This document shows, piece by piece, positions 19,522-35,987 of a DNA stretch of 64,000 bases. Each line of letters opens with the position of its first letter. Positions within the stretch are counted from its first letter, which is position 1. The notes under the pieces are model-generated. The model was not told the origin of the DNA. It saw nothing but the letters and a program-made list of their open reading frames with translations, and did no database searches. The position numbers and the translations under genes were made by a program. This DNA is from Stenotrophomonas rhizophila (lineage in GTDB: Bacteria > Pseudomonadota > Gammaproteobacteria > Xanthomonadales > Xanthomonadaceae), in NCBI RefSeq assembly GCF_003751305.1, contig NZ_RJKV01000001.1:1159586-1223585 (forward strand), written 5' to 3'.

Positions 19522-20559
19522 GTGAGCGCAGCGGTACCGGTTCCGGCCCAACCTGAGATGTCGCCCATTGCGGCCCACCGGGATACTGAGAAAGAAACGC
19601 TGATCGTGGCCGATGTGGGCGGCACCTTCGCCCGCGTTGCCCTGGCCACCGTGCGCGCCGGCACCGCGCCGACGTTGCATGGCCTGCGCCGCTACGCCTG
19701 CGCCGATCATGTCAGCCTTGCCGCGATCCTGGCCGATTTCGTGAGCACGCTGCCTGCGCCGCCGGCCGCGGCCGTGGTCGCGATCGCCGGCCTGCTCGAT
19801 GGCGATCATCTGGTGAACACCAACCTGCCGTGGCCGGTGTCGGTGGCGCGGACTCGTCAGGATTCCGGGTTGGCCTCGCTGGCGCTGATCAACGATTTCG
19901 AAGCGGTCGCCTATGCGATTCCGCATGTGGCGCCGGACACGCTGGTGGCCCTCAACGGGGATGCCGATGTTACCCCGCGCTGGCCGGCGCTGGTGCTGGG
20001 CCCGGGCACTGGCCTGGGGGCGGCCCTGCGCTTTGAAGGTGGCGAGCGGCCGGTGCTGGCCAGCGAGGCCGGCCATGCCGCATTGACGGCCTGCAATGCA
20101 TTGGAGCTGGACGTGCTGTCACGCCTGCTGCAGCGCTGGGAACACGTGGACAACGAGCGCGTGCTGTCCGGCGGCGGCCTGATGAACCTCTATCCCTGCC
20201 TGTGCGATATCCGTGGCGTCACGCCGCGCTGGACCAGCACCGAGGCCCTGATTGCGGCCGCGCATGAGGGCGGCGATCCGGTGGCGGTGGAGACGCTGGA
20301 CGTGTTCTGTGCCTGGCTTGGCAGTCTGGCGGGCGATCTGGCCACGACCTTCGGTGCGCGCTCGGTCTATCTGGCCGGCGGCATCTCCACGCGCGTGGAC
20401 CGGTTCCTGCGCGACGGCCGCTTCCGCGAGCGCTTCCTGGCCAAGGGGGTGATGCGCGACGTGCTGCGCCAGGTGCCGATCTGGCGCGTGGACCATGGTG
20501 AGCTCGGCGTGCTTGGGGCGGCGGTCTGGCATGTGGAGCATCGCCGGTCCGCTGCGTAG
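19522..20559 (+). CDS. glk: Glucokinase
   Basis: A 345-residue enzyme of the proteobacterial glucokinase family (ROK-related ASKHA fold) that phosphorylates glucose with ATP. The phosphate-1 loop is VADVGGTFARVAL. The catalytic aspartate is in LINDFEAVAYAI. LGPGTGLGAAL is the adenosine/phosphate-2 region. The GTG at 19522 has AAGG 7 bases upstream. It starts an apparent operon with a glycosylasparaginase and cutC, next to the mannoside locus, so it may be recruited for sugars released from glycans. A 13-bp palindrome TTGATTCAATCAA sits just before its ribosome binding site. Confidence 0.93.
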   Translation: MSAAVPVPAQPEMSPIAAHRDTEKETLIVADVGGTFARVALATVRAGTAPTLHGLRRYACADHVSLAAILADFVSTLPAPPAAAVVAIAGLLDGDHLVNTNLPWPVSVARTRQDSGLASLALINDFEAVAYAIPHVAPDTLVALNGDADVTPRWPALVLGPGTGLGAALRFEGGERPVLASEAGHAALTACNALELDVLSRLLQRWEHVDNERVLSGGGLMNLYPCLCDIRGVTPRWTSTEALIAAAHEGGDPVAVETLDVFCAWLGSLAGDLATTFGARSVYLAGGISTRVDRFLRDGRFRERFLAKGVMRDVLRQVPIWRVDHGELGVLGAAVWHVEHRRSAA

Positions 20560-20592
20560 TTCCTTCGTTGTCGATTCTCTGGAGGTGCACCG

Positions 20593-21591
20593 ATGAATGA
20601 CCGCAGACGATTCCTTCAGGCGAGCGCGTTGGCCGCCGGTGCGCTGGCATTGCCAACGCTGCAGGCACGGAGCGCGTCCGGCGCACGGGTCGTGTCTACC
20701 TGGGATTTCGGCGTGGGTGCCAACCAGGTGGCGTGGAAGACCTTGTCGGCCGGCGGCTCCGCGCTGGATGCCGTGGAGGCCGGTGCGCGATGGGCCGAGA
20801 GTGACCTGTGCAATCCCACCGTCGGGCGCTGCGGCAATCCTGACCGTGATGGCGTGCTGAGCCTGGATGCCAGCATCATGGACGGCGATGGCCGCTGTGG
20901 ATCGGTGGCAGCGCTTAGCGATATCGCGCACCCGGTCTCGGTGGCGCGGCAGGTGATGGAAAAGACCCCGCACGTGATGCTGGTCGGGGAGGGCGCGCAG
21001 CAGTTCGCGGTGCAGCAGGGCTTCGAACGCAGGAAGCTGCTTACCCCGGACGCTGAAAAAGCCTGGCGCGAGTGGCTCAAGACGGCGCAGTACACGCCCG
21101 AGATCAACGCCGAACGGCGCAGCCGCCCCGGCGACAGCAGCAACCACGACACGTTGGGCATGCTCGCCATCGATGCCGGGGGTCGGTTGGCAGGTGCCTG
21201 CACCACCAGTGGCATGGCCTGGAAAATGCACGGCCGCGTCGGCGACAGCCCGATCATCGGGGCCGGCCTTTACGTCGACAACGAGGTCGGGGCGGCCACC
21301 GCGTCCGGCGTCGGCGAGGAAATGATCCGCAACGCGGCTTCGTTCCTGGTGGTCGAACTGATGCGCCAGGGCCGCTCACCGGCCGACGCCTGCCGCGAGG
21401 CGATCGCCCGGGTGGTGCGCAAGCGCCCGGAAGCAAGCAAGACCCTGCAGGTGTGTTTCCTCGCGTTGAACAAGCACGGTGAGGTCGGCGCCTACGCGCT
21501 GCATCGCGGCTTCGTCTACGCGGTCTGCGACACCAACCGGCAGGACGATCTGCGCGATTCCGCCTCGGTGTACACGAGCGAACAGACGTGA
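20593..21591 (+). CDS. N4-(beta-N-acetylglucosaminyl)-L-asparaginase, exported
   Basis: A 332-residue Ntn-hydrolase of the glycosylasparaginase type, which cleaves the GlcNAc-Asn bond left after N-glycoprotein breakdown. Autoproteolysis should expose the nucleophile T187 in SSNHDTLGM; NPTVGRCGNPDRDG and GSVAALSDIAHPVSVAR are family segments. The N-terminus NDRRRFLQASALAAGALALP is a twin-arginine signal, so the folded enzyme is exported. GGAGG precedes the ATG. Its stop overlaps cutC as GTGA. Company with mannosidases downstream supports N-glycan use. Confidence 0.92.
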   Translation: MNDRRRFLQASALAAGALALPTLQARSASGARVVSTWDFGVGANQVAWKTLSAGGSALDAVEAGARWAESDLCNPTVGRCGNPDRDGVLSLDASIMDGDGRCGSVAALSDIAHPVSVARQVMEKTPHVMLVGEGAQQFAVQQGFERRKLLTPDAEKAWREWLKTAQYTPEINAERRSRPGDSSNHDTLGMLAIDAGGRLAGACTTSGMAWKMHGRVGDSPIIGAGLYVDNEVGAATASGVGEEMIRNAASFLVVELMRQGRSPADACREAIARVVRKRPEASKTLQVCFLALNKHGEVGAYALHRGFVYAVCDTNRQDDLRDSASVYTSEQT

Positions 21592-22322
21592 GCGGGCCGC
21601 GCCGGGTACTGGAGATCGCGTCCAATTCGGTGGCCTCTGCGGTGGCCGCCCAGCAGGGGGGCGCGGATCGGATCGAACTGTTCGACAACCTGGCCGAGGG
21701 CGGCACCACGCCATCGCAGGGCAGCATCGCCGTCGCCCGTGATCGCCTGCGGATTCCACTGTTCGTGCTGATCCGCCCGCGTCCCGGCGATTTCCTCTAC
21801 ACCGCGCAGGAGGCTGAAATCATGCTGCGCGATGTCGCGCACTGCCGTGCGCTCGGCTGCGACGGCGTGGTGATCGGTGCCCTGGAGGCCGACGGCGGCA
21901 TCGACATGGCGCTGTGCCGCGAACTGGTGTCCGCCGCCGGCCCGCTCGGTATCACCTTCCACCGCGCCTTCGATGCCGCGCGTGATATGGGGACGGCGCT
22001 GGAGCAGATCGTGACGCTGGGCTGCCAGCGCATCCTGAGTTCGGGGGGGCAGGCCAGCGCGCTGGCTGGGGCCGATGTCCTGGCCGCACTGGTGGCCCAG
22101 GCAGGCGATCGGATTTCGCTGATGGCCGGTGCGGGAATCACGGCGGCCAATGCCGCAGAGGTCGCCGAACGCAGTGGGTGCATTGAATTGCACGCCTCGG
22201 CGAAGGCCACACAGCGGTCGGCAATGCGCCACCACAATCCAGCACTGACCGGATTGTCGCCGGACTGGACCGCCACCGACGTGGCGCAGGTCAGCGCACT
22301 GCGCGCGGCGCTGGATCGCTGA
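21588..22322 (+). CDS. cutC: CutC family protein
   Basis: A 244-residue TIM-barrel protein. Family segments are LEIASNSVASAVAAQQGGADRIELFDNLAEGG near the start (quoted in part only), LIRPRPGDFLYT, GALEADGGID and ITFHRAFDAARD. CutC was first described as a copper-homeostasis protein, but its biochemical role is not settled. The GTG start overlaps the glycosylasparaginase stop by 4 bases, so the two are coupled. Presence in a glycan operon hints at a metabolic role rather than a copper role, which is inference. Confidence 0.9.
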   Translation: MSGPRRVLEIASNSVASAVAAQQGGADRIELFDNLAEGGTTPSQGSIAVARDRLRIPLFVLIRPRPGDFLYTAQEAEIMLRDVAHCRALGCDGVVIGALEADGGIDMALCRELVSAAGPLGITFHRAFDAARDMGTALEQIVTLGCQRILSSGGQASALAGADVLAALVAQAGDRISLMAGAGITAANAAEVAERSGCIELHASAKATQRSAMRHHNPALTGLSPDWTATDVAQVSALRAALDR

Positions 22323-22333
22323 GAAGCCCGCGG

Positions 22334-22401
22334 GTAGAGCCACCCCATGGGTGGCTGCGCTTTGATCCTGCAACGTGCAGCCACCCATGGGGTGGCTCTA
22401 C
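22334..22401. repeat. Paired inverted SMAG repeats
   Basis: Two 25-bp copies, 22334-22358 and 22377-22401, are perfect reverse complements, 18 bases apart. Each begins GTAGAGCC and folds as GCCACCC-CAT-GGGTGGC. Together they can form one long stem. They lie between the convergent 3' ends of cutC and the TonB-dependent receptor gene and may also act as a bidirectional terminator or 3' RNA stabiliser. Confidence 0.8.
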
Positions 22402-22412
22402 GGATAACACGA

Positions 22413-22472: not shown

Positions 22473-22484
22473 GGAGGACCGCTC

Positions 22485-25400
22485 TTAGAACTTCCAGTTC
22501 ACGCCGAAATACAGCTGGCGGCCGGCATAGATGTTGGACAGCAGGCGGGCCTGGCTGTCATTGCCGATGTAGCTCTGCAGCTCGGACTTGGTGGCGTTGA
22601 GCACCGAGGCGGTCACCGTCCAGTCCGGGGTGATGTTGTAGGCCACGTTGAGGTCGAGCTGGTCGTACGGCTTGGTGTAGGTGGTCAGTCCGTTGTTCAG
22701 GCCACCGACCACTTCGCCACGGCGGTTGTACGAGGCACGGGCCAGCAGCTTGTCGTTCTCGTAGAAGATCGTGACGTTGGCCTGGTTCTTGGCGCTGCCG
22801 ACCAGCGGCGAGGCACCGATTTCTTCGCCATCCAGCACGATCGAGGCGAGGTTGGTGTCGTTGTAGGTGTAGTTGGCCTGGACACCAAAGCCCATGTCGA
22901 ACGTGTACTGACCGTACACCTCCACGCCCTGCGAAACGCCATCGCGACCGTTGGCTTCCGTGGCGTACTTCTGCACCGTGACCGTCTGGCCGCCGACCGT
23001 CATCTGCTGGTCGCGCACCACCGGGACGGTGAAGTTGTCCACGTTCTTGCGGAACAGGGCCACGCCCGCGGCGGAGCCCGGCTTGAAGTACCACTCCAGG
23101 CCGAGGTCGAACTGGACGGCTTCGAACGGTTCCAGGTTCTTGTTGCTGCCCGAGCCGTACCAGCCGGGGGTGTCGGTGCCGCCGGCGACACGGCGGTCGT
23201 TGCTGTATTCCTCGCTGATGTAGCTCAGGCCACCCGGGTAGGCGATGCTGGTGTAACCCGGGCGTGCAATCACCTTCGACGCCGCGCCGCGCAGCACCAG
23301 GCTGTCGGTGATGTCCCAGGCGATGTTGAAGCTGGGCAGGAAGTCGGTATAGGTCTTGTCCAGCGAGCTGAGGGTGTACACCTTGTCGCGGACCTGATTG
23401 TCCGGCAGGCGCACGAAGCCGCCCTGGCAGCGCAGGGTCGGATCGGCCGCCGGATCATCGCAGCTCATCGGCGAGCCGTTGGCGTTGTCCACGAAGTAGT
23501 CGTTGAAGCGCTCCACCGAATCGCTGGACTGGGCGAACTGCTGCGTGCGCACCACGCGCACCCCGACGTTGCCGCGGACGCGCTCGGTACGGAAATTGGC
23601 CTGGAAGTACCCGGAGTAGATCTTCTCGTTGACGTCGTAGACGAAGTCTTCTTCGGTCCGGTTGTGCGAGCCGCCGTAGGTCTGGTTGAGGTAGTTGATG
23701 TAGGCCGGGTAGTTGACGCCCGGGAACACATTGGCGTTGAAGCCGCCGACGATGTTGCTGATCGGGCTGGACAGGAAAAAGCCCGGCTGGGCATCACCGG
23801 CGGTGGAATCGCAGCCGGCCTGGTAGCGGTTGTTATCGTAGTCGGCTGGATCCAGCCCCTGGCAGACCCAATAGGTGTTGCCGGTGTTGCGGTGGACCTT
23901 GCCGTCACGGTACTTGGTGCCGAACTGGATCGAGTCCAGCCAGCCGGCTTCGAACAGCTTGGTGAAGTCGGCCTGGAAGTAGTTCTGTTCAACCTCCGTC
24001 TGCATCCACGACGAGTCGGTCGAGCCGGTGTCGACCTCGGCAATGCCGGCCATCAACTGGTCCTGCAGGTCCGGGGAGAACTGCACCGACGGCGTGCCGG
24101 TGAGGTCCCATGCGGTGTACTGGTTACCCGACAGATAGTCCGCACCGACCTTGCGGCGCGGCTTGGCCGACATCCGGAAGTTCATTGACGGGCCGCCCTC
24201 GGACCACGTACGGCCACCGGTGAACGAGGCCTTCCACAGCGGGCTGATGTCCCATTCGACGGCCAGATCGGCGGTCTGGGAAAGCGCTTTTTCCTTGCTG
24301 TAGCCGCCGGTCAGCTGCGGGGTGGGCAGGGTGCAGTCATCCGGACCCCAGCCGCCCGGCGCAAGGCCAGCCGCTGCGGCCTGTTCTTCGCTGCAGATGT
24401 AGGCCTTGCCCGGCAGCTTCTCGAACTGCGCGCCAGTCACGATGCTGCCACTGGGATCGAAATCGAGCCCGTTGAGGAGTCGGCCGCCGGCCCAGTTACC
24501 GTCGCCGTTGAAGCGGGCCATGCTCCACTCCGGCACCTTGAGCATGTTCTGGGTGTAATCACCCTGCAGCTCGAAGCGGAAGTAGTTGGCGGTCAGGGTC
24601 AGGTTGTCCAGCGGCTTGAACTGGAAGGTCAGCTGCCCACCCTTGCGTTCGCGCTTTTCTTCCTTCACCGCGAAGTTGACCGAGGTCGGCATGAAGAAGT
24701 CGCTGTAGTTGCCGCCGGTCTGGTTGTTGAAACCGGACTGCCCCCACCAGTAGTGGATGCCATCCTGCGCCAGGACGTTGCCGTTGGCATCGCGCGCGTC
24801 GCCGGCGCCATACCACTGATAGTCCTCGGTACTGGCTTCCATGGTGCGGCTGGTGCGCTTCTGCTGCGTCACGCCCACCAGGACGCCAAAGCGCTCATCC
24901 TTGCTGTGCCAGGAGTAGAGCGCCGAGGCCTGCGGATCGATGTCGTGGCTGGTATCCGACGAAGTGCCTTCCAGGTTCACGTAACCCGAGTTGGCTTCCA
25001 TATCGAGCGGACGGCGGGTATGCAGGATCACCGTGCCGCCGATGCCGCCTTCGTCGATGCGCGCTTCCGGGGATTTGAACAGTTCCGCGCTGGACAGCAT
25101 GTTGGACGGCAGCAGCGTGTAGTTGAACGAACGCGACGCCTCGTTGTTGGTTTCCGAGGTGGCGACGTAATTGCCGTTCAACTGGGTGAGGGTGAGGTCG
25201 GGCGCAAGGCCGCGCACGCTGACGCTCTTGCCTTCGCCGCCGCTGCGCGTGATCACCACGCCGGGCACGCGCTGCAGCGCATCGGCGACGTTCTTGTCGG
25301 GGAACTTGCCCACGTCCTCGGCGGTGATCACTTCCACCACCGCGTTCGCATCGCGCTTCTGCTGAAGGCTCTTTTCGATGGCGTAGCGGTAGCCGGTGAC

Positions 25401-25550
25401 GGTCACGCTGTCGAGCGTGGTTGCATCAGGGGTGCCGGTCGCCGGGCTGGCCTGCTGCGCGAATGCGCTGGCCGGCACGACCGCGGTGGCCAAGGCACTG
25501 GCGATGGCCGCGGACAACCTGACGCGGCGGTGCATGCGTGACATCTTCAT
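22485..25550 (-). CDS. TonB-dependent outer-membrane receptor (Xanthomonad carbohydrate type)
   Basis: A 1021-residue outer-membrane transporter. The signal peptide runs from the start to about residue 31 (ASAFAQQ). A TonB-box-like segment LDSVTVTGYR lies near 46-55. The plug domain (VVEVITAEDVGKFPDKNVADALQRVPGV) precedes a 22-strand barrel ending LYFGVNWKF with terminal phenylalanine. Its size fits the large receptors found in carbohydrate-utilisation loci of Xanthomonas and Caulobacter. It is divergent from GH92, with three palindromes in between, so it probably imports mannosides or N-glycan fragments. GGGAGAGAG precedes the ATG; a second in-frame ATG two codons on is possible. Confidence 0.93.
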   Translation of the reverse strand: MKMSRMHRRVRLSAAIASALATAVVPASAFAQQASPATGTPDATTLDSVTVTGYRYAIEKSLQQKRDANAVVEVITAEDVGKFPDKNVADALQRVPGVVITRSGGEGKSVSVRGLAPDLTLTQLNGNYVATSETNNEASRSFNYTLLPSNMLSSAELFKSPEARIDEGGIGGTVILHTRRPLDMEANSGYVNLEGTSSDTSHDIDPQASALYSWHSKDERFGVLVGVTQQKRTSRTMEASTEDYQWYGAGDARDANGNVLAQDGIHYWWGQSGFNNQTGGNYSDFFMPTSVNFAVKEEKRERKGGQLTFQFKPLDNLTLTANYFRFELQGDYTQNMLKVPEWSMARFNGDGNWAGGRLLNGLDFDPSGSIVTGAQFEKLPGKAYICSEEQAAAAGLAPGGWGPDDCTLPTPQLTGGYSKEKALSQTADLAVEWDISPLWKASFTGGRTWSEGGPSMNFRMSAKPRRKVGADYLSGNQYTAWDLTGTPSVQFSPDLQDQLMAGIAEVDTGSTDSSWMQTEVEQNYFQADFTKLFEAGWLDSIQFGTKYRDGKVHRNTGNTYWVCQGLDPADYDNNRYQAGCDSTAGDAQPGFFLSSPISNIVGGFNANVFPGVNYPAYINYLNQTYGGSHNRTEEDFVYDVNEKIYSGYFQANFRTERVRGNVGVRVVRTQQFAQSSDSVERFNDYFVDNANGSPMSCDDPAADPTLRCQGGFVRLPDNQVRDKVYTLSSLDKTYTDFLPSFNIAWDITDSLVLRGAASKVIARPGYTSIAYPGGLSYISEEYSNDRRVAGGTDTPGWYGSGSNKNLEPFEAVQFDLGLEWYFKPGSAAGVALFRKNVDNFTVPVVRDQQMTVGGQTVTVQKYATEANGRDGVSQGVEVYGQYTFDMGFGVQANYTYNDTNLASIVLDGEEIGASPLVGSAKNQANVTIFYENDKLLARASYNRRGEVVGGLNNGLTTYTKPYDQLDLNVAYNITPDWTVTASVLNATKSELQSYIGNDSQARLLSNIYAGRQLYFGVNWKF

Positions 25551-25597
25551 TCCACTCTCTCCCTCTCCTGGATTGAAACGGTGGCGATACGAATTCT

Positions 25598-25611
25598 TTG
25601 AATCGATCTAA
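25598..25611. promoter_or_regulatory. Candidate LacI-family operator A
   Basis: TTGAATCGATCTAA, centred on ATCGAT, about 48 bases upstream of the receptor ATG. The CG at the centre of an even palindrome is typical of LacI-family sites. The right half CGATCTAA is identical in all three copies. Confidence 0.6.
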
Positions 25612-25718: not shown

Positions 25719-25732
25719 TTGGATCGATCTAA
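25719..25732. promoter_or_regulatory. Candidate LacI-family operator B
   Basis: TTGGATCGATCTAA, 121 bases from copy A. It lies upstream of the receptor gene, where it could overlap a promoter or serve as a distal site for looping. Confidence 0.6.
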
Positions 25733-26004
25733 ACGATTGGCGGCGAATTTTTAACACGACCGGCGCCGGGAAGCATGCTGCTCCGCAATATGGACCATGA
25801 GCGACCGTCCGCAGTGCGGGCGCTACGAGCCAGCGCAACAGGGGATTCCTTCTACACCTCGCAGACAGGCACTTGCCGCGATCGTTTCCTGGACACCTTG
25901 GTGGGCGACGGGCGTTCCGCGCGGGACGGCGCGCGGCGCGCGTTGGCGGAGGACGCGTGCATGTTGCAGCGCAGAATGCATCCGCCGAAATCTCCGTGCT
26001 TTAC

Positions 26005-26018
26005 TTAAATCGATCTAA
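26005..26018. promoter_or_regulatory. Candidate LacI-family operator C
   Basis: TTAAATCGATCTAA, the most A/T-rich copy, about 100 bases before the GH92 start codon at 26119. It is well placed to control the GH92 gene and the genes after it. Confidence 0.6.
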
Positions 26019-26118
26019 ATTCACCGGGGTGTGGATTGGGTCATCCCGTCCCAGGAACCGCCGACCCCGGTCGCCGCTGGTTCTCGCCGCCGCCACGTCC
26101 GCCAAGGAGTCCGTGTCC

Positions 26119-28605
26119 GTGACCCGCTTTTCCCGACATCCTGCTGTTGCTGCTACCCCCGGCGTTCGCCCGGTCCGCCGTCGTCCGCTCGCCGGCCTGG
26201 CCTGCCTGCTGGCGCTGAGCTGCGCGCCGCTGGTGCTGCAGGCCGCACCCGCCGCACTGGAGCGCGAGGTGAACACCTTCATCGGCAGCAAGGATGACGG
26301 CAACACCTTCCCGGGCGCCTCGGCTCCGTTCGGCCTGATCCAGGTCAGCCCGATCGGCGAGCACTATGCCGGCTGGCGTTATGACGACCCCAAGATCCGC
26401 GGTTTCGGGCATTCGTTCCTGTCCGGTGCCGGCTGCTGGGAGCAGGGCGGGCAGGTCTCGGTACTGCCGGTGACCGGCAGCATCGGTCCGGGCGGTGACT
26501 TCAATACCGACGACGCCAAGAGCTTCGACCACAAGCGCTACGCGTCCAGCTATACCCACGACGGTGAAGTCGGCCAGGCCGGGTATTACAAGGTACGCCT
26601 GACCAATTACGGCGGCATCGATGCCGAGGCCACCGCACGCACCCGTGCCGCAGCCGAGCGTTACACCTTTGCCGCCGATGCGGATACCGGCCACGTGCTG
26701 GTCAACCTTGGCCAGGCCAACGAGCGCCATTCGGTGATCGGCAGTGTGGTCGACGTGGTCGGCGACCGTGCCGTGGAAGGCAAGCTGGTCACCAAGAGCT
26801 TCTGCGGTGGGCATCAGTACACCACCTGGTTCCGCATCGAGTTCGACCGCCCGTTCAAGGCGTTCGGGACCTGGGGCGAGGGCGGTGGCCTGCCCGGCGC
26901 ACGCCACGGCATGGAAGGCGAACTCAAGCCGAGCGGCGCCTGGCTCAGCTTCGATCTGGCCAAGGGCCGTGCGGTGACCGCGGTCAGCGCGATTTCGCAC
27001 GTGGATGCCGAAGGCGCGCGCGCCAATCTGCGCAGCGATGGCATGCAGGGCGATCGCCTGCTCGGCTTCGATCAGATGCGCCAGATGGCGCAGCAGCAGT
27101 GGCGCAAGGAACTGGCGGCCGTGCGTGTGCAGGGCGGCAACAGCGACGACCGCACCGTGCTGTACACCGCGCTGTACCACGCGCTGCTGCAGCCGCTGAC
27201 CGGCAGCGACGCCGATGGCCGCTACCGTGGTTACGACGACAACATCCATCGCGCCGATGGCTGGACCTACTACGAGTATTTCTCGCTGTGGGATACCTAC
27301 CGTGCGCAGAACCAGTGGCTGGCGCTGACCAAGCCCGACGTCGCGCGTGACATCGGCCGGACCCTGCTGGCCATTGAAGCGCAGGGCGGCTGGTTGCCGC
27401 GCTGGGGCTATGCCAACTTTGAAACCAACATCATGACCGGCGACCCGGTCACGCCGTTCCTGGTGGATCTGTGGCGTTTCGGCGCGCTGGACGGCCGCGA
27501 GGGTGAGGCTTACACCGCGCTGCGCAAGAACGCCTTCCAGGTGCCGCCGATGAACTCGCGTCACGCCGGGCGCTCGGGCAACCCGAACTACCTGGCCAAC
27601 GGCTACGTGCAGTACGACCGCGCCTTCCCCTCCAAGGGCATGGACGTGGATCCGCACCACGGGGGATCGGCAACGCTGGAATACGCACTGGCTGACTGCG
27701 CGCTGGCGCAGATGGCCGATGGCCTCGGCCATGCCGCCGATGCCGGCGTGCTGCGCGAGCGTGGCCGCAACTGGCACAAGGTGTGGGATCCGTCGGTGCG
27801 TGACGAGGAGGGCGACTTCAACGGCTTCCCGCGGCCGCGCATGGAGGATGGCGCGTGGTACCTGCCGGCCGATGGCAAGTACAGCCCGCGCTCGCATCAC
27901 GGGTTCCATGAAGGCACCGCATGGCAGTACCAGTGGCTCGCGCAGCAGGACGTGCCGGGCCTGGTCCAGGCCATGCACGGCCGCGAACAGACCGCGCGCC
28001 GACTGGATACCTTCTTCGCTTACGACGCCCTCGTTACATCGCCGCTGACCGCCGCCCGCAAGGAATGGGTGGTCGGGCCGTACAGCTACTACAACCAGTT
28101 CCGCTACAACCCCAACAACGAGCCGGACCTGCACGCGCCGTGGATGTACACGCTGATCGGCCAGCCGTGGAAGACCGCCACCGTGGTGCGCGCCGCGCAG
28201 CAGTTGTTCACCAATGCACCCAATGGCGTCACCGGCAATGATGACCTGGGCACGATGTCGGCCTGGTACCTGTTCAGTGCGCTGGGGCTGTACCCGGCGG
28301 TACCGGGCAGCGGCGAGTTCCTGCTGCACACGCCGCGCTTCGCTCGTGCCGAGATCGATCTGGGCCAGGGTAAAACGTTGACCTTGAAGGCGCCGGGCGC
28401 GGATGGCCGCCAACTGCAGTATGTCCAGAGTGTCCAGGTCGATGGCCGCGCGCATGCGCCGGTGTGGCTGGACTGGGCCCAGCTGCAGCGCGGTGGCACC
28501 ATCGCCTTCGCCCTGGGCGGCACCGCGCCGGAGAACGGCTGGGGCACCCAGGCCGAGGCGCTGCCGGCCTCGTTCTGCGCCACCCCGGGCGCGGTACTGG
28601 AATGA
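26119..28605 (+). CDS. GH92 alpha-mannosidase, exported
   Basis: An 828-residue glycoside hydrolase. After a signal peptide (RRRPLAGLACLLALSCAP...AAPA) the mature protein starts EVNTFIGSKDDGNTFPGASAPFGLIQ, typical of GH92. RGFGHSFLSGAGCWEQG and GNDDLGTMSAWYLFSALGLYP are family blocks; the aspartates of the GNDD block match catalytic-site residues known in Bacteroides GH92 enzymes. GH92 enzymes are calcium-dependent inverting exo-alpha-mannosidases that trim high-mannose N-glycans or mannan. I chose the GTG at 26119, with AAGGAG 9 bases upstream. The linkage preference cannot be read. Confidence 0.93.
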   Translation: MTRFSRHPAVAATPGVRPVRRRPLAGLACLLALSCAPLVLQAAPAALEREVNTFIGSKDDGNTFPGASAPFGLIQVSPIGEHYAGWRYDDPKIRGFGHSFLSGAGCWEQGGQVSVLPVTGSIGPGGDFNTDDAKSFDHKRYASSYTHDGEVGQAGYYKVRLTNYGGIDAEATARTRAAAERYTFAADADTGHVLVNLGQANERHSVIGSVVDVVGDRAVEGKLVTKSFCGGHQYTTWFRIEFDRPFKAFGTWGEGGGLPGARHGMEGELKPSGAWLSFDLAKGRAVTAVSAISHVDAEGARANLRSDGMQGDRLLGFDQMRQMAQQQWRKELAAVRVQGGNSDDRTVLYTALYHALLQPLTGSDADGRYRGYDDNIHRADGWTYYEYFSLWDTYRAQNQWLALTKPDVARDIGRTLLAIEAQGGWLPRWGYANFETNIMTGDPVTPFLVDLWRFGALDGREGEAYTALRKNAFQVPPMNSRHAGRSGNPNYLANGYVQYDRAFPSKGMDVDPHHGGSATLEYALADCALAQMADGLGHAADAGVLRERGRNWHKVWDPSVRDEEGDFNGFPRPRMEDGAWYLPADGKYSPRSHHGFHEGTAWQYQWLAQQDVPGLVQAMHGREQTARRLDTFFAYDALVTSPLTAARKEWVVGPYSYYNQFRYNPNNEPDLHAPWMYTLIGQPWKTATVVRAAQQLFTNAPNGVTGNDDLGTMSAWYLFSALGLYPAVPGSGEFLLHTPRFARAEIDLGQGKTLTLKAPGADGRQLQYVQSVQVDGRAHAPVWLDWAQLQRGGTIAFALGGTAPENGWGTQAEALPASFCATPGAVLE

Positions 28606-28663
28606 GCAGCAGGTCAGCGCGATCGTTTAGGCTTGCACCTTGCTTGAGGAACCCGACGACCCG

Positions 28664-29707
28664 ATGAACGACAAGGCCACCCCTGCCGGCAAAGGTACGC
28701 GCGCGGTCACCGTGACCGACATCGCCGAAGCGATCGGCGTGTCGCGCGCGACCGTGTCGCTGGTGCTGCGCGGCAGCCCCTTGGTCAACGTCGACACCCG
28801 GGCCAAGGTGGAAGCCGAACTGCGGCGCCAGCGGTATGTGTACAACCGCGGCGCGGCCAACCTGCGCCGGCGTACGTCCTCGAGCGTGGCGCTGGTGATC
28901 AATGATCTGTCCAACCCGTTCTTCGCCGAATTCGCCTCCGGGGTGGATGAAGCGCTGGGCGGCAAGGGCTTCGTGACCCTGCTCGGCAGCACCGGCGAAT
29001 CGCCGGAGCGTCAGCAGGCCGTGCTGGCTACGCTGATGGAGCACATGCCGGCCGGGCTGATCCTGTCGCCGGCCGAAGGCAGCGATGCGGGGCAGCTGCG
29101 CCAGGTGCTCGGTCATGCCAACGTGCTGCTGTTCAATCGCGAACTGCCCGGCGCCGAATGGGATTTCCTGACGCTGGACAACCAGCAGGGCGCCTACCTG
29201 GCGACGCGCCATCTGATCGAGCAGGGCCACCGCCGTATCGCGTTCTATGGGGGTCATGCCGTGTCCAGCTCGTGCCATCAGCGCCGTACCGGCTATGCAC
29301 AGGCGCTGGTGGAGGCGGGGATGCCGGTGCAGCCGGAGTGGCTGATCGAGACCTCGCCCAGCCGCCTGGATGCAGCCGCCCGCACCGGTGAGCTGTTCGC
29401 GCTGGGTGCAGTGCCGACCGCAGCGGTCTGCTACAACGACAGCGTCGCGCTGGGCCTGATGCTGGGCCTGGCCTCGCGCGGGGTGCAGCCTGGCCGCGAC
29501 TTCGCAGTGACCGGTTTCGATGATATTTCCGAGGCCTCCGTGGCATCGCCGCCGCTGACCACGCTGACGGTCAACCCGCGCGAGCGTGGGCGGCAGGCCG
29601 CGGAGCTGCTTCTGCAGCGACTCGATCACCCGGAGGCGGCGGCACAGCGTACTGTTGCACCGGTCCAACTCCGTATCCGCGAAAGCAGCGGCAGCACTGT
29701 CGCCTGA
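28664..29707 (+). CDS. LacI-family regulator of the mannoside locus
   Basis: A 347-residue repressor. The N-terminal helix-turn-helix VTVTDIAEAIGVSRATVSLV is followed by the hinge helix region and a periplasmic-binding-protein-like sugar domain (VALVINDLSNPFFAEFASGV ... DFAVTGFDDISEASVASPPLTT). It lies 58 bases after GH92 and before the transporter, kinase and isomerase genes, so it probably binds the ATCGAT palindromes and responds to mannose or a mannoside. A possible TTG start at 28640 would add eight residues; I prefer the ATG. It resembles the ManR-type regulators I recall being predicted for Xanthomonadales. Confidence 0.9.
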   Translation: MNDKATPAGKGTRAVTVTDIAEAIGVSRATVSLVLRGSPLVNVDTRAKVEAELRRQRYVYNRGAANLRRRTSSSVALVINDLSNPFFAEFASGVDEALGGKGFVTLLGSTGESPERQQAVLATLMEHMPAGLILSPAEGSDAGQLRQVLGHANVLLFNRELPGAEWDFLTLDNQQGAYLATRHLIEQGHRRIAFYGGHAVSSSCHQRRTGYAQALVEAGMPVQPEWLIETSPSRLDAAARTGELFALGAVPTAAVCYNDSVALGLMLGLASRGVQPGRDFAVTGFDDISEASVASPPLTTLTVNPRERGRQAAELLLQRLDHPEAAAQRTVAPVQLRIRESSGSTVA

Positions 29708-29751: not shown

Positions 29752-31062
29752 ATGCCCATTTCCCCAACGCCCCGTCTCCCGTCCTCGTCCTCTGCTGCGC
29801 CCGTGGTGAACACGCGTGTCGCGCTGGCCGTGGCGACCACGATCTTCTTCATGTGGGGCTTCCTCACCTGCCTCAATGACATCCTGATCCCGCATCTGAA
29901 GGCCGTGTTCGACCTGACCTACGCCCGCGCGATGCTGGTGCAGTTCACCTTCTTCGGCGCGTACTTCCTGATGTCGGTGCCGGCCAGTCGCCTGGTCGCA
30001 CGGCTGGGCTACAAGAACGGCATCGTGGCCGGCCTTGCCATTGCCGCAGTGGGCGCGCTCGGCTTCTGGCCGGCGGCCGAGCTGCGGGTGTATGAAGCCT
30101 TCCTGGGCGCGCTGTTCGTGCTGGCCACGGGCATCACCGTGCTGCAGGTGGCGGCCAATCCGTACGTCGCCCTGCTGGGCCCGGAGCAGACGGCCTCCAG
30201 CCGCCTGACGCTGGCGCAGGCGTTGAACTCGCTGGGTACGGCGATCGCGCCGATCTTCGGTGGCCTGCTGATCCTGGGCAACACCGTCAAGAGCGCGGAC
30301 GAGATCAATGTGCTGCCGATGGCCGAACAGCTGGCCTATCGCACCCAGGAAGCCCAGTCCGTGCAGGGCCCGTATGTCGGCCTGGCGATCGCGCTGGTCC
30401 TGCTTGCCGTGTTCGTGTATCTGTTCCGCCTGCCGGCACTGAATGAGACGACCGAGCAGAACGGTGGCGACAAGCACACCCTGATGGAGGCGCTGCGTCA
30501 CCGCCACGTCCGGTTCGGCGTGCTCGGCATCTTCTTCTACGTGGGTGCGGAAGTGGCGGTGGGCAGCGTGCTGGTGAACTACCTGTCGCTGCCGAACATC
30601 GGCGGCTTCAGCGAACAGCAGGCCACGCATTACGTCTCGGCGTACTGGACGATGGCGATGATCGGCCGCTTTGCCGGTTCGGCCATCATGACCCGCTTCT
30701 CGCCGCGCCTGCTGCTGACCCTGTTCGCCAGCATGAACGTGGCGCTGCTGGCCCTGACCATGCTCACCCAGGGGCAGGTAGCGCTGTACTCGGTGGTGGC
30801 GATCGGCCTGTTCAACTCGATCATGTTCCCGACGATCTTCGCGCTGAGCATCGAACGCCTGGGCACGCTGACCACCAAGGCCTCGAGCCTGCTGATCATG
30901 GCGATTGTCGGCGGGGCGCTGATCCCGGTCCTGCAGGGCAAGCTGGCCGACCATATCGGCCTGCAGCCGTCCTTCATCCTGCCGCTGCTGTGCTACGGCT
31001 ACATCATCTTCTACGGCCTGTGGGGTTCGCGCCCGGCCGTTGGAATCCGCCAGGGAAATTGA
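29752..31062 (+). CDS. FHS-family (FucP/GluP-like) MFS sugar transporter
   Basis: A 436-residue inner-membrane protein with twelve predicted helices. The start LAVATTIFFMWGFLTCLNDILIPHLK is characteristic of the FHS family of sugar:proton symporters. VLQVAANPYVALLGP and LGTAIAPIFGG are further family blocks. It would carry the monosaccharide freed by the periplasmic mannosidases, most likely mannose. It is followed by the kinase gene after 7 bases, with GAGG between, so they form one operon. Confidence 0.92.
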   Translation: MPISPTPRLPSSSSAAPVVNTRVALAVATTIFFMWGFLTCLNDILIPHLKAVFDLTYARAMLVQFTFFGAYFLMSVPASRLVARLGYKNGIVAGLAIAAVGALGFWPAAELRVYEAFLGALFVLATGITVLQVAANPYVALLGPEQTASSRLTLAQALNSLGTAIAPIFGGLLILGNTVKSADEINVLPMAEQLAYRTQEAQSVQGPYVGLAIALVLLAVFVYLFRLPALNETTEQNGGDKHTLMEALRHRHVRFGVLGIFFYVGAEVAVGSVLVNYLSLPNIGGFSEQQATHYVSAYWTMAMIGRFAGSAIMTRFSPRLLLTLFASMNVALLALTMLTQGQVALYSVVAIGLFNSIMFPTIFALSIERLGTLTTKASSLLIMAIVGGALIPVLQGKLADHIGLQPSFILPLLCYGYIIFYGLWGSRPAVGIRQGN

Positions 31063-31069
31063 GGCCAAG

Positions 31070-32065
31070 ATGTCCAAAATTGTCTGTTTCGGCGAGATTT
31101 TGATCGATCTACTTGCCCAACCTCCGGCGTCTCCCGATACCCCCCGTGCCTTCCTGCAGTACGCCGGCGGCGCGCCCGCCAACGTAGCTGTGGCGGCCGC
31201 ACGGCTGGGCGCGGACACGCATTTCGCTGGCATGCTGGGCAAGGACATGTTTGGCGACTTCCTCGCCGAGAGCCTGGCCAATGCCGGCGTGGCGACCGAT
31301 TGCATCGTGCGCACGGATGAAGCCAAGACCGCGCTGGCGTTCGTCGCACTCGATGCCAGTGGCGAGCGCAGCTTCAGCTTCTACCGCCCGCCGGCGGCGG
31401 ATCTGCTGTTCCGTAGCACGCATTTCCACCCGAACTGCTTCGAGGGCACGCGCAGCTTCCACGTGTGTTCCAACAGCCTGACCGAGGCGGAGATCGCGCA
31501 GGCCACGCTGGAAGGCATGCGCCGCGCCCGCCAGGCCGGCGCGATGGTCAGCATCGACCTCAACCTGCGCCCGGCGCTGTGGCCGACCGGTGTCGACCCG
31601 CTGCCGCGCCTGTGGGAAGCGCTGTCGCTGGCCGAGCTGGTCAAGCTGTCGCGCGAGGAACTGGAGTATCTGGCGGGCTCGGTGCCCGGTGGCGACGCTG
31701 CGGTGGTCGAGCGCCTGCTCGGCGCGCAGGCGCAGGCGGTGGTGATCACCGACGGCGCCGCGCCGATCCGCTGGCACACCCGCCACGGCAACGGCGTACT
31801 CACCGGCTTCCAGGTGACGACGGTGGATTCCACCGCCGCCGGCGATGCGTTCGTGGGCGGCCTGCTGTTCGGCATCGGCGAACGCGGCGGTGATGGCACG
31901 GCGTTCCCCGCGTTCTGCGCGGGACAGGCCGGCCTGCTCGAGGCGATCCACTTCGGTGCGGCTGTCGGTGCCCTGGCGGTCACCCGCAAGGGGGCGTTCG
32001 CCGCGATGCCCAGCCTTGGGGAAGTCCAGCAACTGCTGCAGCAACAACAGGAAACCGCCGCATGA
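31070..32065 (+). CDS. PfkB-family sugar kinase, probably fructokinase
   Basis: A 331-residue ribokinase-fold enzyme. The N-terminal block CFGEILIDLLAQ and the GGAPANVAVAAARLG segment are PfkB signature 1. Signature 2 is VDSTAAGDAFVGGLLFG, with the catalytic-base aspartate in AAGD. The closest matches in memory are fructokinases. With a mannose isomerase encoded next, it should phosphorylate fructose to fructose-6-phosphate. GAGG sits 6 bases before the ATG at 31070. It overlaps the isomerase gene by 4 bases (ATGA). A near-copy of the operator core (GATCGATCTA) lies within codons 11-14. Confidence 0.9.
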   Translation: MSKIVCFGEILIDLLAQPPASPDTPRAFLQYAGGAPANVAVAAARLGADTHFAGMLGKDMFGDFLAESLANAGVATDCIVRTDEAKTALAFVALDASGERSFSFYRPPAADLLFRSTHFHPNCFEGTRSFHVCSNSLTEAEIAQATLEGMRRARQAGAMVSIDLNLRPALWPTGVDPLPRLWEALSLAELVKLSREELEYLAGSVPGGDAAVVERLLGAQAQAVVITDGAAPIRWHTRHGNGVLTGFQVTTVDSTAAGDAFVGGLLFGIGERGGDGTAFPAFCAGQAGLLEAIHFGAAVGALAVTRKGAFAAMPSLGEVQQLLQQQQETAA

Positions 32066-33255
32066 GCACCACCACCGCATCCCAGCCCGATTTCCGTTCG
32101 CCGGATTTCCTGCGCGCCCATGTCGCGCGGACGATGGCGTTCTATCAGCCGCATGAAATCGACCCCAAGGGCGGCTTCTTCCATTACTACCGTGACGATG
32201 GCAGCGTGTACGACGCCAGCCACCGTCATCTGGTCAGCAGCACGCGTTTCGTGTTCAACCACGCGATGGCCTACCGCGAGTTCGGCAAGCCCGAGGACCT
32301 GGCGGCGGTCGAACACGGTGTGCGTTACCTGCGCGAGATACATCGCAATCCGGCCACTGGCGGTTACGCCTGGACGCTGCGCGATGGCGTGGTCGAAGAT
32401 GCGACCAACCACTGCTACGGCGTCGCGTTTGTGCTGCTGGCCTACAGCTGCGCGCTGAAAGCTGGCATTGCCGAGGCGCGTTCGTGGATGGACGAGACCT
32501 GGCAGCTGCTGGAAACGCGCTTCTGGGAACCGGCGTTCGGCCTGTACAAGGACGAAGCCGATGCCGACTGGACCTTCAGCGACTACCGCGGCCAGAACGC
32601 CAACATGCACATGTGCGAGGCGATGCTGGCCGCGTTCGAGGCCAGTGGCGAGCAGCGCTATCTTGATCGTGCGCTGCTGCTGGCCGACCACATGACCCGC
32701 CGCCAGGCCGCGCAGGGCGATGGCCTGGTGTGGGAGCACTACGACACCCAGTGGCAGATCGACTGGGACTACAACCGCGACAACCCCAAGCACCTGTTCC
32801 GTCCCTGGGGCTTCCAGCCAGGGCATCAGACCGAGTGGGCCAAGCTGCTGCTGATCCTGGACCGCCACGTACAGGCCGACTGGCTGGTGCCGACCGCGCG
32901 CCATCTGTTCGATGTGGCGGTGGAGCGCAGTTGGGATGCCGAGCGTGGCGGGCTGTACTACGGTTTCGCGCCGGATGGCAGCGTCTGCGATGACGACAAG
33001 TATTTCTGGGTGCAGGCCGAGTCGCTGGCCACCGCCGCGTTGCTGGCCAAGCGCACCGGCGATGCCGTGTACTGGGACTGGTACGACCGCCTGTGGGCGT
33101 ATGCGTGGGCGCATATGGTCGATCACCAGTACGGCGCGTGGTTCCGCATCCTGGATGCGGACAACCGCAAGTACAGCGATGAAAAGAGCCCGGCCGGCAA
33201 GACCGATTACCACACCATGGGCGCCTGCTACGAAGTGCTCAACGTAGTGCGTTGA
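32062..33255 (+). CDS. AGE-family D-mannose isomerase
   Basis: A 397-residue (alpha/alpha)6-barrel protein of the N-acylglucosamine 2-epimerase superfamily. TNHCYGVAFVLLAY, NANMHMCEAMLAAFEA, FQPGHQTEWAKLL and DYHTMGACYE carry the conserved histidines and arginine-pocket residues of mannose/aldose isomerases. It likely interconverts mannose and fructose. Genomic partners (sugar transporter and PfkB kinase) support this over epimerisation of GlcNAc, but the exact aldose is inferred. Two GTAG repeats lie just after it. Confidence 0.9.
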   Translation: MSTTTASQPDFRSPDFLRAHVARTMAFYQPHEIDPKGGFFHYYRDDGSVYDASHRHLVSSTRFVFNHAMAYREFGKPEDLAAVEHGVRYLREIHRNPATGGYAWTLRDGVVEDATNHCYGVAFVLLAYSCALKAGIAEARSWMDETWQLLETRFWEPAFGLYKDEADADWTFSDYRGQNANMHMCEAMLAAFEASGEQRYLDRALLLADHMTRRQAAQGDGLVWEHYDTQWQIDWDYNRDNPKHLFRPWGFQPGHQTEWAKLLLILDRHVQADWLVPTARHLFDVAVERSWDAERGGLYYGFAPDGSVCDDDKYFWVQAESLATAALLAKRTGDAVYWDWYDRLWAYAWAHMVDHQYGAWFRILDADNRKYSDEKSPAGKTDYHTMGACYEVLNVVR

Positions 33256-33260
33256 ATCCG

Positions 33261-33322
33261 GTAGAGCCGACCGTCGGTCGGCTGCCCCAACATCCCGGTA
33301 GAGCCGACCGTTGGTCGGCTGC
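33261..33322 (+). repeat. Tandem SMAG repeats
   Basis: Two direct 25-bp copies at 33261-33285 and 33298-33322 differ at one base. Each starts GTAGAGCCGACCGT and folds as AGCCGACC / GGTCGGCT. They separate the mannose isomerase gene from the beta-mannosidase gene and could lower expression of the latter relative to upstream genes. Confidence 0.8.
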
Positions 33323-33344
33323 TCCCGCAGCCAGGCAGGTCCTC

Positions 33345-35987
33345 ATGCGCGCGCACAGCCGTCTCCATGTCGTTGCACCGGCCAGCTGGCTGTTGCTGGT
33401 CCTGCTGGCAGCATGGGCACTGCCCGTGGCAGCCGCCCCGCTGCTGGCAGAGTGGTCATTGCGCCTGTTGCCCGGTGATGCCCAGCTTCGTGCCCACCCG
33501 CAGCTGGGCGAGTGGCGTGCTGCGCAGGTGCCCGGGGCCGTGCATACCGATCTGCTGGCGCAGGAGCAGATTCCCGATCCTTACGTGGGTGCGCCGGAAG
33601 CCGGGCTGCAGTGGATCGGCCTGTCCGACTGGGAGTACCGCGCACGATTCGATGTGGATGCGGCCACGCTGGCGCGCGCGCATGCCGAGCTGGCGTTCGA
33701 AGGGCTGGACACGTTCGCCACCGTCACGCTCAACGGCCAGCCCCTCCTGCAGGCCGACAACAGCCACCGCACCTGGCGGGCGCGGGTGGATGGCCAGTTG
33801 CGGCCCCGCGGCAATGAGCTGCGCATCGTGCTGCGTTCGCCGATCCGCACCCTGCTGCCGGTCGTGCAGGCGATGCCGCACAAGATCGCCGGCAACTACC
33901 CTTCGCCCTATGGCGATGAGCCCAAAGACGCGATGGTCGGCAATTTCGTGCGCAAGCCGGGCTATCACTTCGGCTGGGATTGGGGCCCGCGTTACGTGAC
34001 CGCCGGCATCTGGCGGCCGGTGAAGCTCGAGAGCTGGGACGCACAGCGCCTGACCGCTCTGGTGGTGCAGACCCGCAGCCTGGACGCGGCCAAGGCGGAC
34101 CTTGAGATCGCGGTCGAGGTGGAAAGCGCGGTGGTTGGTTCTGCGTCCGTGCAGGTGGATGTCCTGGATCCGGACGGCAAGCGCGTGGCGCGCATCGACC
34201 AAAAGACGATGCTCAAGGCCGGTGACAACCGCATTGCGGTGCCGGTCGCGCTGCAGAAGCCGCGGCGCTGGTGGCCGGCCGGGCAGGGCGAGCAGGCCCG
34301 CTACACTGTGCGTGCCACCCTGGCGCCTGAGACGGCGGAGGCGACGCACATCGAGCAGCGCACCGGCCTGCGGACCGTCGAGCTGCGCCGCGAAGTGGAC
34401 CGCAACGGCGGACAGGGCTTCGCATTCGTGATCAACGGTGTGCCGATCTTTGCCAAGGGCGCCAACGTCATTCCGTTCGACATGTTCCCCGCGCGTGTGG
34501 ACGCGGCGCGGATTCGGCGCGAGCTGACCGCAGCGCGCGATGCCAACATGAACATGCTGCGCAACTGGGGCGGTGGCTATTACGAAGACGATGCGTTCTT
34601 CGATATCGCCGACGAGCTGGGGCTACTGGTCTGGCAGGATTTCATGTTCGGTGGCGGGATGCAGCCAGGTTACGATCCCGCGTTCCGCGCGAACGTGGTC
34701 CATGAGGCGCGCGACAATGTGCGCCGTCTGCGCCATCACCCCAGCGTGGTGCTGTGGTGTGGCAACAACGAAGAAGAGACTGCATGGAAGGACTGGGGCC
34801 ATGGCCGTGACCTGACCGCTGCCGATCCTGCCTTCGCTGCGAAGGTCTGGCAGGGGTATGTGGACCTGTTCGGCAACGACCTGCGCCAGGTGGTGACCGA
34901 GGAAGGGCTGGGCGTGCCGTACTGGTCGAGCTCGCCGAGCAATGATCTGGACGAGAAGGCCAACGATTCCACCCGCGGCGACAAGCACTACTGGCAGGTG
35001 TGGGGCAACCCGGCGCTGCCGGTCACCGCGTACCTGCGTGAAACGCCGCGTTTCATGTCCGAGTACGGGCTGCAGGCCTGGCCGGCGCTGCGCACGCTGG
35101 ACGGCATCATTCCCGCCGCCGAGCAGCAGGTCGACAGCCCGACGGTACGCGCGCATCAGAAGTTCATGGCGGGCGAGGGCAACCAGCGCCTGCTCAAGTA
35201 CATCGAGGAGGAGTACGGCACGCCGCGTGACTTCGCCACGTTCGTCTACCTGAGCCAGGTCATGCAGGCCGATGGCATCCAGCTCGCTGCCCTGCATCAC
35301 CGGGCCTCGCGGCCGTACACGATGGGCTCGTTGTACTGGCAGCTCAACGATGTATGGCCGGGGGCGTCGTGGTCCAGCATCGATTACGCCGGGCGTTGGA
35401 AGGCGCTGCATTTCCACGCCAAGCGCTTCTTCGCCGACCACGCGGTGGCGGCACTGCGCGATGAAGGGGTGACCCGGGTGAGCCTGCTCAATGATCGTCA
35501 GCAGGGCCTGCAGGCCACGTGGCGGCTGCGCGTGATCGACCTCGATGGCACCCAGCGCAGTGAGCAGCGGCACACCGTGGCAGTGCCGCCGCTGTCCGCG
35601 CTGGAGGTGGGGCGATTTGCCGACGCGGACCTGTTGAAGGGCGCCGATCCAACCCGCACCGTGGCGGTGGTCGAGCTGTTCGATGGCGCGACGCTGTTGT
35701 CGCAGCAGGTGGTGTATTTCGTGCCGGCCAAAGCGTTGGCGCTGTCACCGGCGAAGATCGACAGCGCGCTGCGCGCCGATGGCGACGGCTACCTGCTGAC
35801 GCTGCGCTCGCCCACGTTGGTGCGGGCGCTGTGGATCGACTTCGATGGGCGGGACGCCGCGCTCAGTGAAAACGCGCTGGACCTGGTGCCGGGTGAAACG
35901 GTGACGATCCGGCTGCGCGCGGAGGCGGATCTGGCGACGCTGCGCAACGCGTTGCGCCTGCACTCCTTGGCAGATATCCGGAGGTAG
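33345..35987 (+). CDS. GH2 beta-mannosidase, exported
   Basis: An 880-residue enzyme with a signal peptide (SWLLLVLLAAWALPVAAAP). The N-terminal jelly-roll domain (FEGLDTFATVTLNGQPLLQADNS) and Ig-like domains precede the catalytic barrel at about residues 370-700. The acid/base is E476 in CGNNEEETAW; the nucleophile is E573 in FMSEYGLQ. PYTMGSLYWQLNDVWPG is typical of GH2 beta-mannosidases. It would remove the core beta-1,4-mannose of N-glycans or cleave manno-oligosaccharides in the periplasm. Its stop TAG is part of a GTAG repeat. Confidence 0.94.
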   Translation: MRAHSRLHVVAPASWLLLVLLAAWALPVAAAPLLAEWSLRLLPGDAQLRAHPQLGEWRAAQVPGAVHTDLLAQEQIPDPYVGAPEAGLQWIGLSDWEYRARFDVDAATLARAHAELAFEGLDTFATVTLNGQPLLQADNSHRTWRARVDGQLRPRGNELRIVLRSPIRTLLPVVQAMPHKIAGNYPSPYGDEPKDAMVGNFVRKPGYHFGWDWGPRYVTAGIWRPVKLESWDAQRLTALVVQTRSLDAAKADLEIAVEVESAVVGSASVQVDVLDPDGKRVARIDQKTMLKAGDNRIAVPVALQKPRRWWPAGQGEQARYTVRATLAPETAEATHIEQRTGLRTVELRREVDRNGGQGFAFVINGVPIFAKGANVIPFDMFPARVDAARIRRELTAARDANMNMLRNWGGGYYEDDAFFDIADELGLLVWQDFMFGGGMQPGYDPAFRANVVHEARDNVRRLRHHPSVVLWCGNNEEETAWKDWGHGRDLTAADPAFAAKVWQGYVDLFGNDLRQVVTEEGLGVPYWSSSPSNDLDEKANDSTRGDKHYWQVWGNPALPVTAYLRETPRFMSEYGLQAWPALRTLDGIIPAAEQQVDSPTVRAHQKFMAGEGNQRLLKYIEEEYGTPRDFATFVYLSQVMQADGIQLAALHHRASRPYTMGSLYWQLNDVWPGASWSSIDYAGRWKALHFHAKRFFADHAVAALRDEGVTRVSLLNDRQQGLQATWRLRVIDLDGTQRSEQRHTVAVPPLSALEVGRFADADLLKGADPTRTVAVVELFDGATLLSQQVVYFVPAKALALSPAKIDSALRADGDGYLLTLRSPTLVRALWIDFDGRDAALSENALDLVPGETVTIRLRAEADLATLRNALRLHSLADIRR

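Follow-up and report, generated by a model that had tools for sequence, protein, structure and literature searches.

Conserved linkage of CutC to glycosylasparaginase suggests a sugar-processing role for CutC at a mannoside utilization locus of Stenotrophomonas rhizophila

We analysed a window of 64,000 nucleotides (G000:C1:1159586-1223585) from the 4.09-Mb, 100% complete genome of Stenotrophomonas rhizophila. It holds two same-strand gene rows, glk-GA-cutC (GA, glycosylasparaginase) and GH92-LacI-FHS-PfkB-isomerase-GH2 (GH, glycoside hydrolase), with several overlapping gene ends, and a TonB-dependent receptor gene divergent from GH92. We found that CutC is tied to GA by gene position and by co-occurrence in more than one bacterial phylum, and cutC, which a preliminary description of this DNA named only in passing, tells us more than any other gene of the set. 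The locus is a variation on known N-glycan and mannoside clusters, and the linkage of CutC to GA is the part that should surprise specialists. We consider it reasonably probable that the locus forms one carbohydrate regulon of two operons and that CutC processes the amino-sugar product of GA; judging from gene context, CutC likely works as a sugar-processing enzyme in the branch that uses N-acetylglucosaminyl-asparagine (GlcNAc-Asn).

GA splits GlcNAc-Asn into aspartate and 1-amino-GlcNAc, which yields GlcNAc. Loss of the human enzyme, AGA, leads to a storage disease, and a second enzyme on the same branch would therefore be of interest. CutC spans bacteria to humans with an unsettled function, and the tie to GA points to a definite class of substrates for the family and to an assay that is easy to set up. 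The three genes of the first row are as follows.

19522-20559, + strand: glucokinase (PF02685, PRK12408 subfamily), heading the glk-GA-cutC row
20593-21591, + strand: exported GA (PF01112), with a Tat-like signal by eye and N-D-T at residues 185-187
21588-22322, + strand: CutC (PF03932 TIM barrel), with no evident signal peptide and a 4-bp overlap with the GA end

Linkage of CutC to glycosylasparaginase across bacteria

The GA of the window is 62% identical to the glycosylasparaginase of Elizabethkingia and far nearer to it than to isoaspartyl peptidases (E 7e-105 to the GA branch vs 4e-37 for the best other branch), and its N-D-T autocleavage site is intact, with T187 conserved. These features, with the Tat-type signal seen by eye, agree with the exported glycosylasparaginase of the preliminary description, and the protein is predicted to act on GlcNAc-Asn. 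Its best matches (96-97%) are from Stenotrophomonas sp. SAM-B, another Stenotrophomonas, S. bentonitica, S. rhizophila, and a strain filed as S. maltophilia. One record titled Bacillus subtilis SK7B5 (L051, JAHREJ010000006.1) has a Stenotrophomonas-type locus, and the assembly is therefore evidently mislabelled or contaminated.

We compared 80 GA loci, the best of 320 confirmed matches, which come mostly from Xanthomonadaceae and kin, together with Oxalobacteraceae, Gemmatimonadota, and Mucilaginibacter. In 72 of them, cutC lies downstream of GA in the same orientation and no more than 400 bp away, with a median gap of 15 bp, and in two further loci it lies on the opposite strand or 453 bp off. 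Five genomes with a GA locus were searched whole, and in each CutC is single-copy and located at that locus.

The two proteins also occur together. Among 138 Bacteroidota genomes, CutC is present in 42 and GA in 66, the GA cut being set at 237.9 bits because scores gap from there down to 187.4. GA was found in all 42 genomes with CutC as compared to 24 of the 96 without it (Fisher p 1e-18, uncorrected for kinship), and a stricter cut of 340 bits gives 40/42 vs 19/96. In 18 of the 42, GA stands upstream of CutC in the same orientation and within 1 kb; in four more it is on the opposite strand within 2 kb, and in two within ~10 kb. As a control, an isoaspartyl-peptidase-type paralogue shows no clear link to CutC in these genomes (24/42 vs 39/96, p 0.09); in the 24 genomes holding both, with the distance taken for a single paralogue in each genome, the pair is on the same contig in six, always at least 67 kb apart.

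Among 239 Pseudomonadota genomes, CutC is found in 31, GA in nine, and both in seven (p 1e-5), that is, CutC is present in 7/9 genomes with GA vs 24/230 without, and in six of the seven genomes with both the two genes lie within ~2 kb. When the genus of the window is left aside, CutC is present in four of six GA genomes. The Bacteroidota sample is centred on a Mucilaginibacter genome (G061) chosen for having GA, the Pseudomonadota sample includes the genome of the window, and for some genomes of both samples only part of the first-look candidates was scored. On a CutC tree of 85 rows, made by a quick method with xanthomonad rows thinned and with duplicates and one long row (L259) dropped, a minimum of 10 changes is required to account for adjacency to GA, and well supported branches force five of them.

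Several observations weigh against a dedicated partnership. No cutC was found in the flank of six of the 80 GA loci, CutC is distant from GA or on a different contig in 18 of the 42 Bacteroidota genomes, and GA is missing from 24 of the 31 CutC-bearing Pseudomonadota genomes. By eye, CutC stands amid housekeeping genes in nine loci from two gammaproteobacterial families (L220-L228); these loci and the GA-less Pseudomonadota indicate that CutC cannot serve GA alone. In addition, GA and CutC can move jointly between phyla, and related genomes are non-independent samples.

Other neighbourhoods of CutC

Glycan-degrading genes recur around CutC in other genomes. In Bacteroidota, one locus has the order CutC, GH20, GH92, GA (L257) and another the order GH92-like genes, GH20, CutC, GH2 (L258), where the GH92-like genes rest on eye reading because L258:9531-12458 was left unscanned. 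GH2 adjoins CutC in two loci (L239, L249), GH20 is two genes off in a third (L241), and another gammaproteobacterium has a GA-GH85-CutC-GH2 row (L259:2108-8537), which is a compact N-glycan core operon. In four loci of one family (f52; L230, L231, L234, L235), no GA, GH20, or GH2 neighbour was seen; these and L220-L228 were read without a Pfam scan. The neighbour reading left out L232 and L237, where the simple caller gave no CutC open reading frame (ORF), and the neighbour scan left out L230:5987-7003 and L238:908-1912 as well as the part of L258 named above.

These neighbourhoods bear on an alternative that we take seriously without favouring it, in which the substrate of CutC is a general sugar metabolite (N-acetylhexosamines or their phosphates, for example, on which it could be a mutarotase, epimerase, or lyase), and GlcNAc derived from GA is one source only. 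In genomes with no GA match, CutC adjoins a ROK kinase (L229), follows a ROK kinase, a GatZ/KbaZ-like protein, and an amidohydrolase in what is perhaps an aminosugar pathway (L236:1711-5779), or follows an amidohydrolase (L238). The fold of CutC is like that of sugar-phosphate barrels, and two glycines that come after strand 7, G181 and G183, are conserved in the CutC alignment, in accordance with this alternative. On its own, however, it leaves unexplained that no Bacteroidota genome of the sample has CutC without GA.

A LacI-type operator at the mannosidase genes

The features of the mannosidase half and the candidate operators (given without strand) are as follows.

19495-19508: degenerate operator TTCAATTGATTCAA, two mismatches, upstream of glk
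22485-25550, - strand: TonB-dependent receptor (above the TIGR01782 cut-off)
25598-25611: operator TTGAATCGATCTAA, in the receptor-GH92 gap
25719-25732: operator TTGGATCGATCTAA, in the receptor-GH92 gap
25873-28605, + strand: exported GH92 alpha-mannosidase, true start probably near 26113 (by eye)
26005-26018: operator TTAAATCGATCTAA, inside the called GH92 ORF
28640-29707, + strand: LacI-family regulator, presumed owner of the operator
29752-31062, + strand: FHS-type sugar:H+ symporter (above both the gluP and the fucP cut-offs of NCBIfam)
31040-32065, + strand: PfkB sugar kinase, fructokinase-like (fructokinase profile 212.2 vs cut-off 450)
32062-33255, + strand: isomerase of the AGE superfamily, mannose-isomerase-like (D-mannose isomerase profile 236.9 vs cut-off 600)
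33252-35987, + strand: exported GH2 beta-mannosidase (signal by eye), homologue of PDB 6byc/6bye/6byg/6byi

We scanned 18 window proteins from 17757-41937 with Pfam and NCBIfam profiles, and every gene that the preliminary description had named was recovered in its place. The GH2 protein is clearly homologous to a beta-mannosidase of known structure (6bye, E 3e-298), and the closest structure of the isomerase is 3gt5 (E 9e-221). Since the isomerase and the kinase both score under their NCBIfam cut-offs, the route from mannose to fructose and fructose-6-phosphate is one that we infer, and since the symporter passes two cut-offs, fucose is also a possible cargo. No SusD was found among the scanned proteins, and the TonB receptor stands without a SusC/SusD pair, unlike in polysaccharide utilization loci of the Bacteroidota type.

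A palindromic LacI-type operator, TTRRATCGATYYAA, which was first found by reading TTGAATCGATCTAA and TTGGATCGATCTAA in the receptor-GH92 gap, has three exact sites between the TonB receptor and GH92. The third falls inside the called GH92 ORF, so the called start lies too far upstream; by eye, the signal peptide begins near 26113. At up to three mismatches the window has nine strand-wise matches, while shuffles have 1.6 on average and five at most. Across the genome there are four exact sites and four with one mismatch, as compared to no exact site of a reversed control pattern, and six of the eight stand upstream of GH92 genes. The genome holds exactly three GH92 genes, and all three have this CG-centred palindrome: the second (L033) has one exact and one near operator upstream, and the third (L035) has a one-mismatch site only, 11 bp upstream. 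The other two one-mismatch operators (L036:4488 and L034:4071) have no GH92 gene; one is ~230 bp before a family 2 glycosyltransferase, and the other lies in a stretch with no called gene. A two-mismatch site at 31099-31112 of the window, inside the start of the PfkB gene, is probably a coding chance.

Exact operators are found in 36 of 61 genomes searched, 33 of 37 within the genus and three of 24 outside, and one of the latter three also matches the control pattern. Among 20 operator loci from other genomes, one from each, 15 are at GH92 or the receptor; for same-genus loci with 1.5-kb flanks, the count is 15 of 17, and of the five loci elsewhere, two belong to the genus and three to other families. 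The LacI protein encoded at 28640-29707 is presumed to be the regulator that binds the operator.

A partly conserved operator before the glk-GA-cutC operon

From exact sites alone, the glk-GA-cutC operon appeared to lie outside the regulon, and this was overturned by a mismatch scan of relatives. The five Stenotrophomonas nearest to the window carry TTCAATCGATTCAA, with one mismatch, 27 bp before the glk start, at the same offset as the degenerate site of the window. In 55 of the 80 GA loci glk is directly upstream, and we scored the best site in 225 bp around its start; two of these rows (L092 and L098, both misses) are faulty, as the contig begins inside glk, which leaves 53 valid rows. Five of the 55 have no mismatch, eight have one, and six have two, as compared to 40, 23, and nine of 4000 random stretches from the same loci, some of which are true GH92 sites. 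At one mismatch or fewer, this amounts to 13/55 vs 63/4000. The exact sites belong to four Pseudoxanthomonas and Luteimonas salinisoli, and the one-mismatch sites to the five closest Stenotrophomonas and three further Pseudoxanthomonas.

The mannosidase operator thus also stands before glk in relatives, which supports a joint regulon of mannosidases and GA. Set against this regulon are the site of the window, where one of the two mismatches falls in the central CG, the 36 of 55 glk rows (34 of the 53 valid ones) with three or more mismatches, and the four of 37 genomes of the genus in which the exact operator is absent. The pattern across rows indicates that some members of the family have kept the co-regulation, which may have become weaker in the strain of the window. 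As it stands, the operator defines a testable regulon that would join mannosidases with the use of GlcNAc-Asn.

We propose that LacI probably represses the TonB receptor, the GH92-LacI-FHS-PfkB-isomerase-GH2 operon, the two GH92 genes elsewhere, and, at least ancestrally, glk-GA-cutC. The mannosidases would remove alpha- and beta-mannose outside the cell or in the periplasm, and mannose would be imported by the FHS symporter and converted to fructose and then to fructose-6-phosphate. From GlcNAc-Asn, the remnant of the glycoprotein core, GA would release aspartate and 1-amino-GlcNAc; a cytoplasmic CutC would process this amino-sugar product, and Glk or a kinase like it would then phosphorylate the sugar. 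Hydrolysis of the glycosylamine is our first guess for the CutC step, and we give this guess rather low odds.

It is unlikely, in our judgement, that the mannosidase half serves mannan or mannooligosaccharides while glk-GA-cutC is a separate salvage operon that became a neighbour by chance. Such a division would fit the presence of GH92, GH2, or GH20 in the flank of only 37 of the 80 GA loci, a genome without GH85, and most Stenotrophomonas beyond the nearest five being without a good glk operator. It is at odds with the exact and one-mismatch glk operators in relatives, and with merged clusters in which the cassette stands with GH92, GH2, and the isomerase (L071, L073, L085) or with GH92 and GH20 (L086, L087, L094, L103). 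The GA-cutC cassette is found beside GH92, GH2, or GH20 in some Pseudoxanthomonas and Lysobacter.

Enzymes for the chitobiose core

No GH20, GH18, or GH85 was found among the 18 scanned proteins, as the preliminary description had stated for the stretch; it had concluded that the chitobiose steps lie elsewhere or that the substrate is mannan. A whole-genome search returned one GH20 and one GH18 and no GH85, and the best 60 of 147 structural matches of the GH18 comprise chitinases and proteins resembling them, none being called an endoglycosidase. The sole GH20, at C2:565367, stands in a nag-type row with a TonB receptor, a LacI-like gene, and nag genes (by eye), and was rejected as a member of the regulon, with no operator within two mismatches across its 36 kb. 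With regard to the earlier proposal of N-glycan degradation, joint use of mannosidases and GA is supported by the operators and merged clusters, and release of whole glycans is at most a possibility after a search for core-opening enzymes that covered GH20, GH18, and GH85 and not PNGases. The mannosidase half may therefore act on mannan.

The CutC protein

The CutC of the window matches its family by profile (PF03932) and by fold. The model (pLDDT 96.6) aligns with human CUTC (3iwp) at Z 37.7 and 45% identity, and human CUTC and Shigella CutC (1twd) share its fold and sequence family, which is represented in the PDB by six entries from four sequences. Of the 50 fold matches listed, those other than CutC are at Z 17-21 and agree at the level of barrel type only, the nearest being MJ1099, hexulose-phosphate synthase, DERA, and phosphoribosylanthranilate isomerase, an enzyme that rearranges a glycosylamine. 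A class I aldolase, suggested by DERA and MJ1099 as near folds, was rejected, as no lysine is among the columns kept at 85% or more of the 85 rows.

In 85 dereplicated CutC sequences, E9, R28, E30, R63, R65, H125, R126, D129, and H202 are kept at 95% or more, and in the model they map in or just after strands 1, 2, 3, 5, and 8. There is no invariant cysteine; the commonest cysteine column has it in 77 of the 85, with phenylalanine in the window protein. On the model, the conserved residues suggest an active site more than a copper site built from cysteines; the ligand comparison covered cysteines, and histidine or other residues could still be copper ligands.

The family is named for copper, while the context of the window CutC is N-glycan core catabolism. 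We think it quite improbable that CutC is a copper-homeostasis protein travelling with GA in a conserved or selfish operon, within an ordinary N-glycan and mannoside cluster. In favour of a copper role are the names given by Pfam and NCBIfam, the increased copper sensitivity of animal CUTC knock-downs (PMC11083455), which also counts against an enzyme of GlcNAc-Asn use, and the listing of cutC of the nix region under copper metabolism in Xanthomonas (PMC6718126). It is countered by the lack of an invariant cysteine, by the repeated changes of GA adjacency on the tree and the several gene orders in which it occurs, by the weak copper binding of human CUTC (PMC11083455), and by the attribution of copper tolerance in cutC-overexpressing E. 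coli to the sigma-E response in a 2019 screen (PMC6338753). The MicL small RNA is made from the cutC region (PMC8216713). A 2024 review judges that human CUTC is unlikely to act as a chaperone for copper, assigns it to copper homeostasis nonetheless, and describes its mode of action as undefined (PMC11083455). Extending our reading to the whole family, from bacteria to human CUTC, as a TIM-barrel enzyme of GlcNAc-Asn catabolism instead of a copper protein, acting on the glycosylamine released by GA or on GlcNAc from it, is tentative, and we hold it to be rather doubtful.

Relation to known systems

The nix N-glycan cluster of Xanthomonas was reportedly described by Dupoiron in 2015. It has an alpha-mannosidase, a beta-mannosidase, and a TonB receptor in common with the window locus, and its neighbourhood includes asparaginase XAC3092 and cutC, XAC3091 (PMC6718126, PMC5700972). 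In contrast to the nix cluster, no fucosidase, hexosaminidase, or galactosidase is among the 18 scanned proteins, and the window locus has built-in mannose catabolism genes and a LacI gene. A 2019 Xanthomonas paper treats cutC as copper metabolism (PMC6718126), and a 2017 paper notes the asparaginase near the nix cluster, where a prediction server links VirK with CutC and XAC3092 (PMC5700972). In Lactobacillus casei, a fucosyl-GlcNAc-Asn pathway likewise uses a glycosylasparaginase for an N-glycan core constituent, in another organism and on another substrate (PMC6960285). The best PDB match of the window GH92 (7zgm, E 8e-89) is B035DRAFT_03340, a plant N-glycan enzyme of Bacteroides massiliensis (PMC9522356), and the similarity is modest, such that linkage specificity is not transferable. 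We found no paper naming both glycosylasparaginase and CutC, and no title or abstract proposing a role of CutC in N-glycan use, in a search with preprints and most subscription papers outside its coverage.

Flanking genes

Upstream of glk, the window encodes a calcineurin-like phosphoesterase with MetallophosN/C domains (17757-19412), which also directly precedes glk in 15 of the 80 GA loci (L037-L051). Directly after the locus, at 36061-38085, are genes of the methionine-salvage type, encoding a HAD hydrolase, an ARD dioxygenase, and a class II aldolase.

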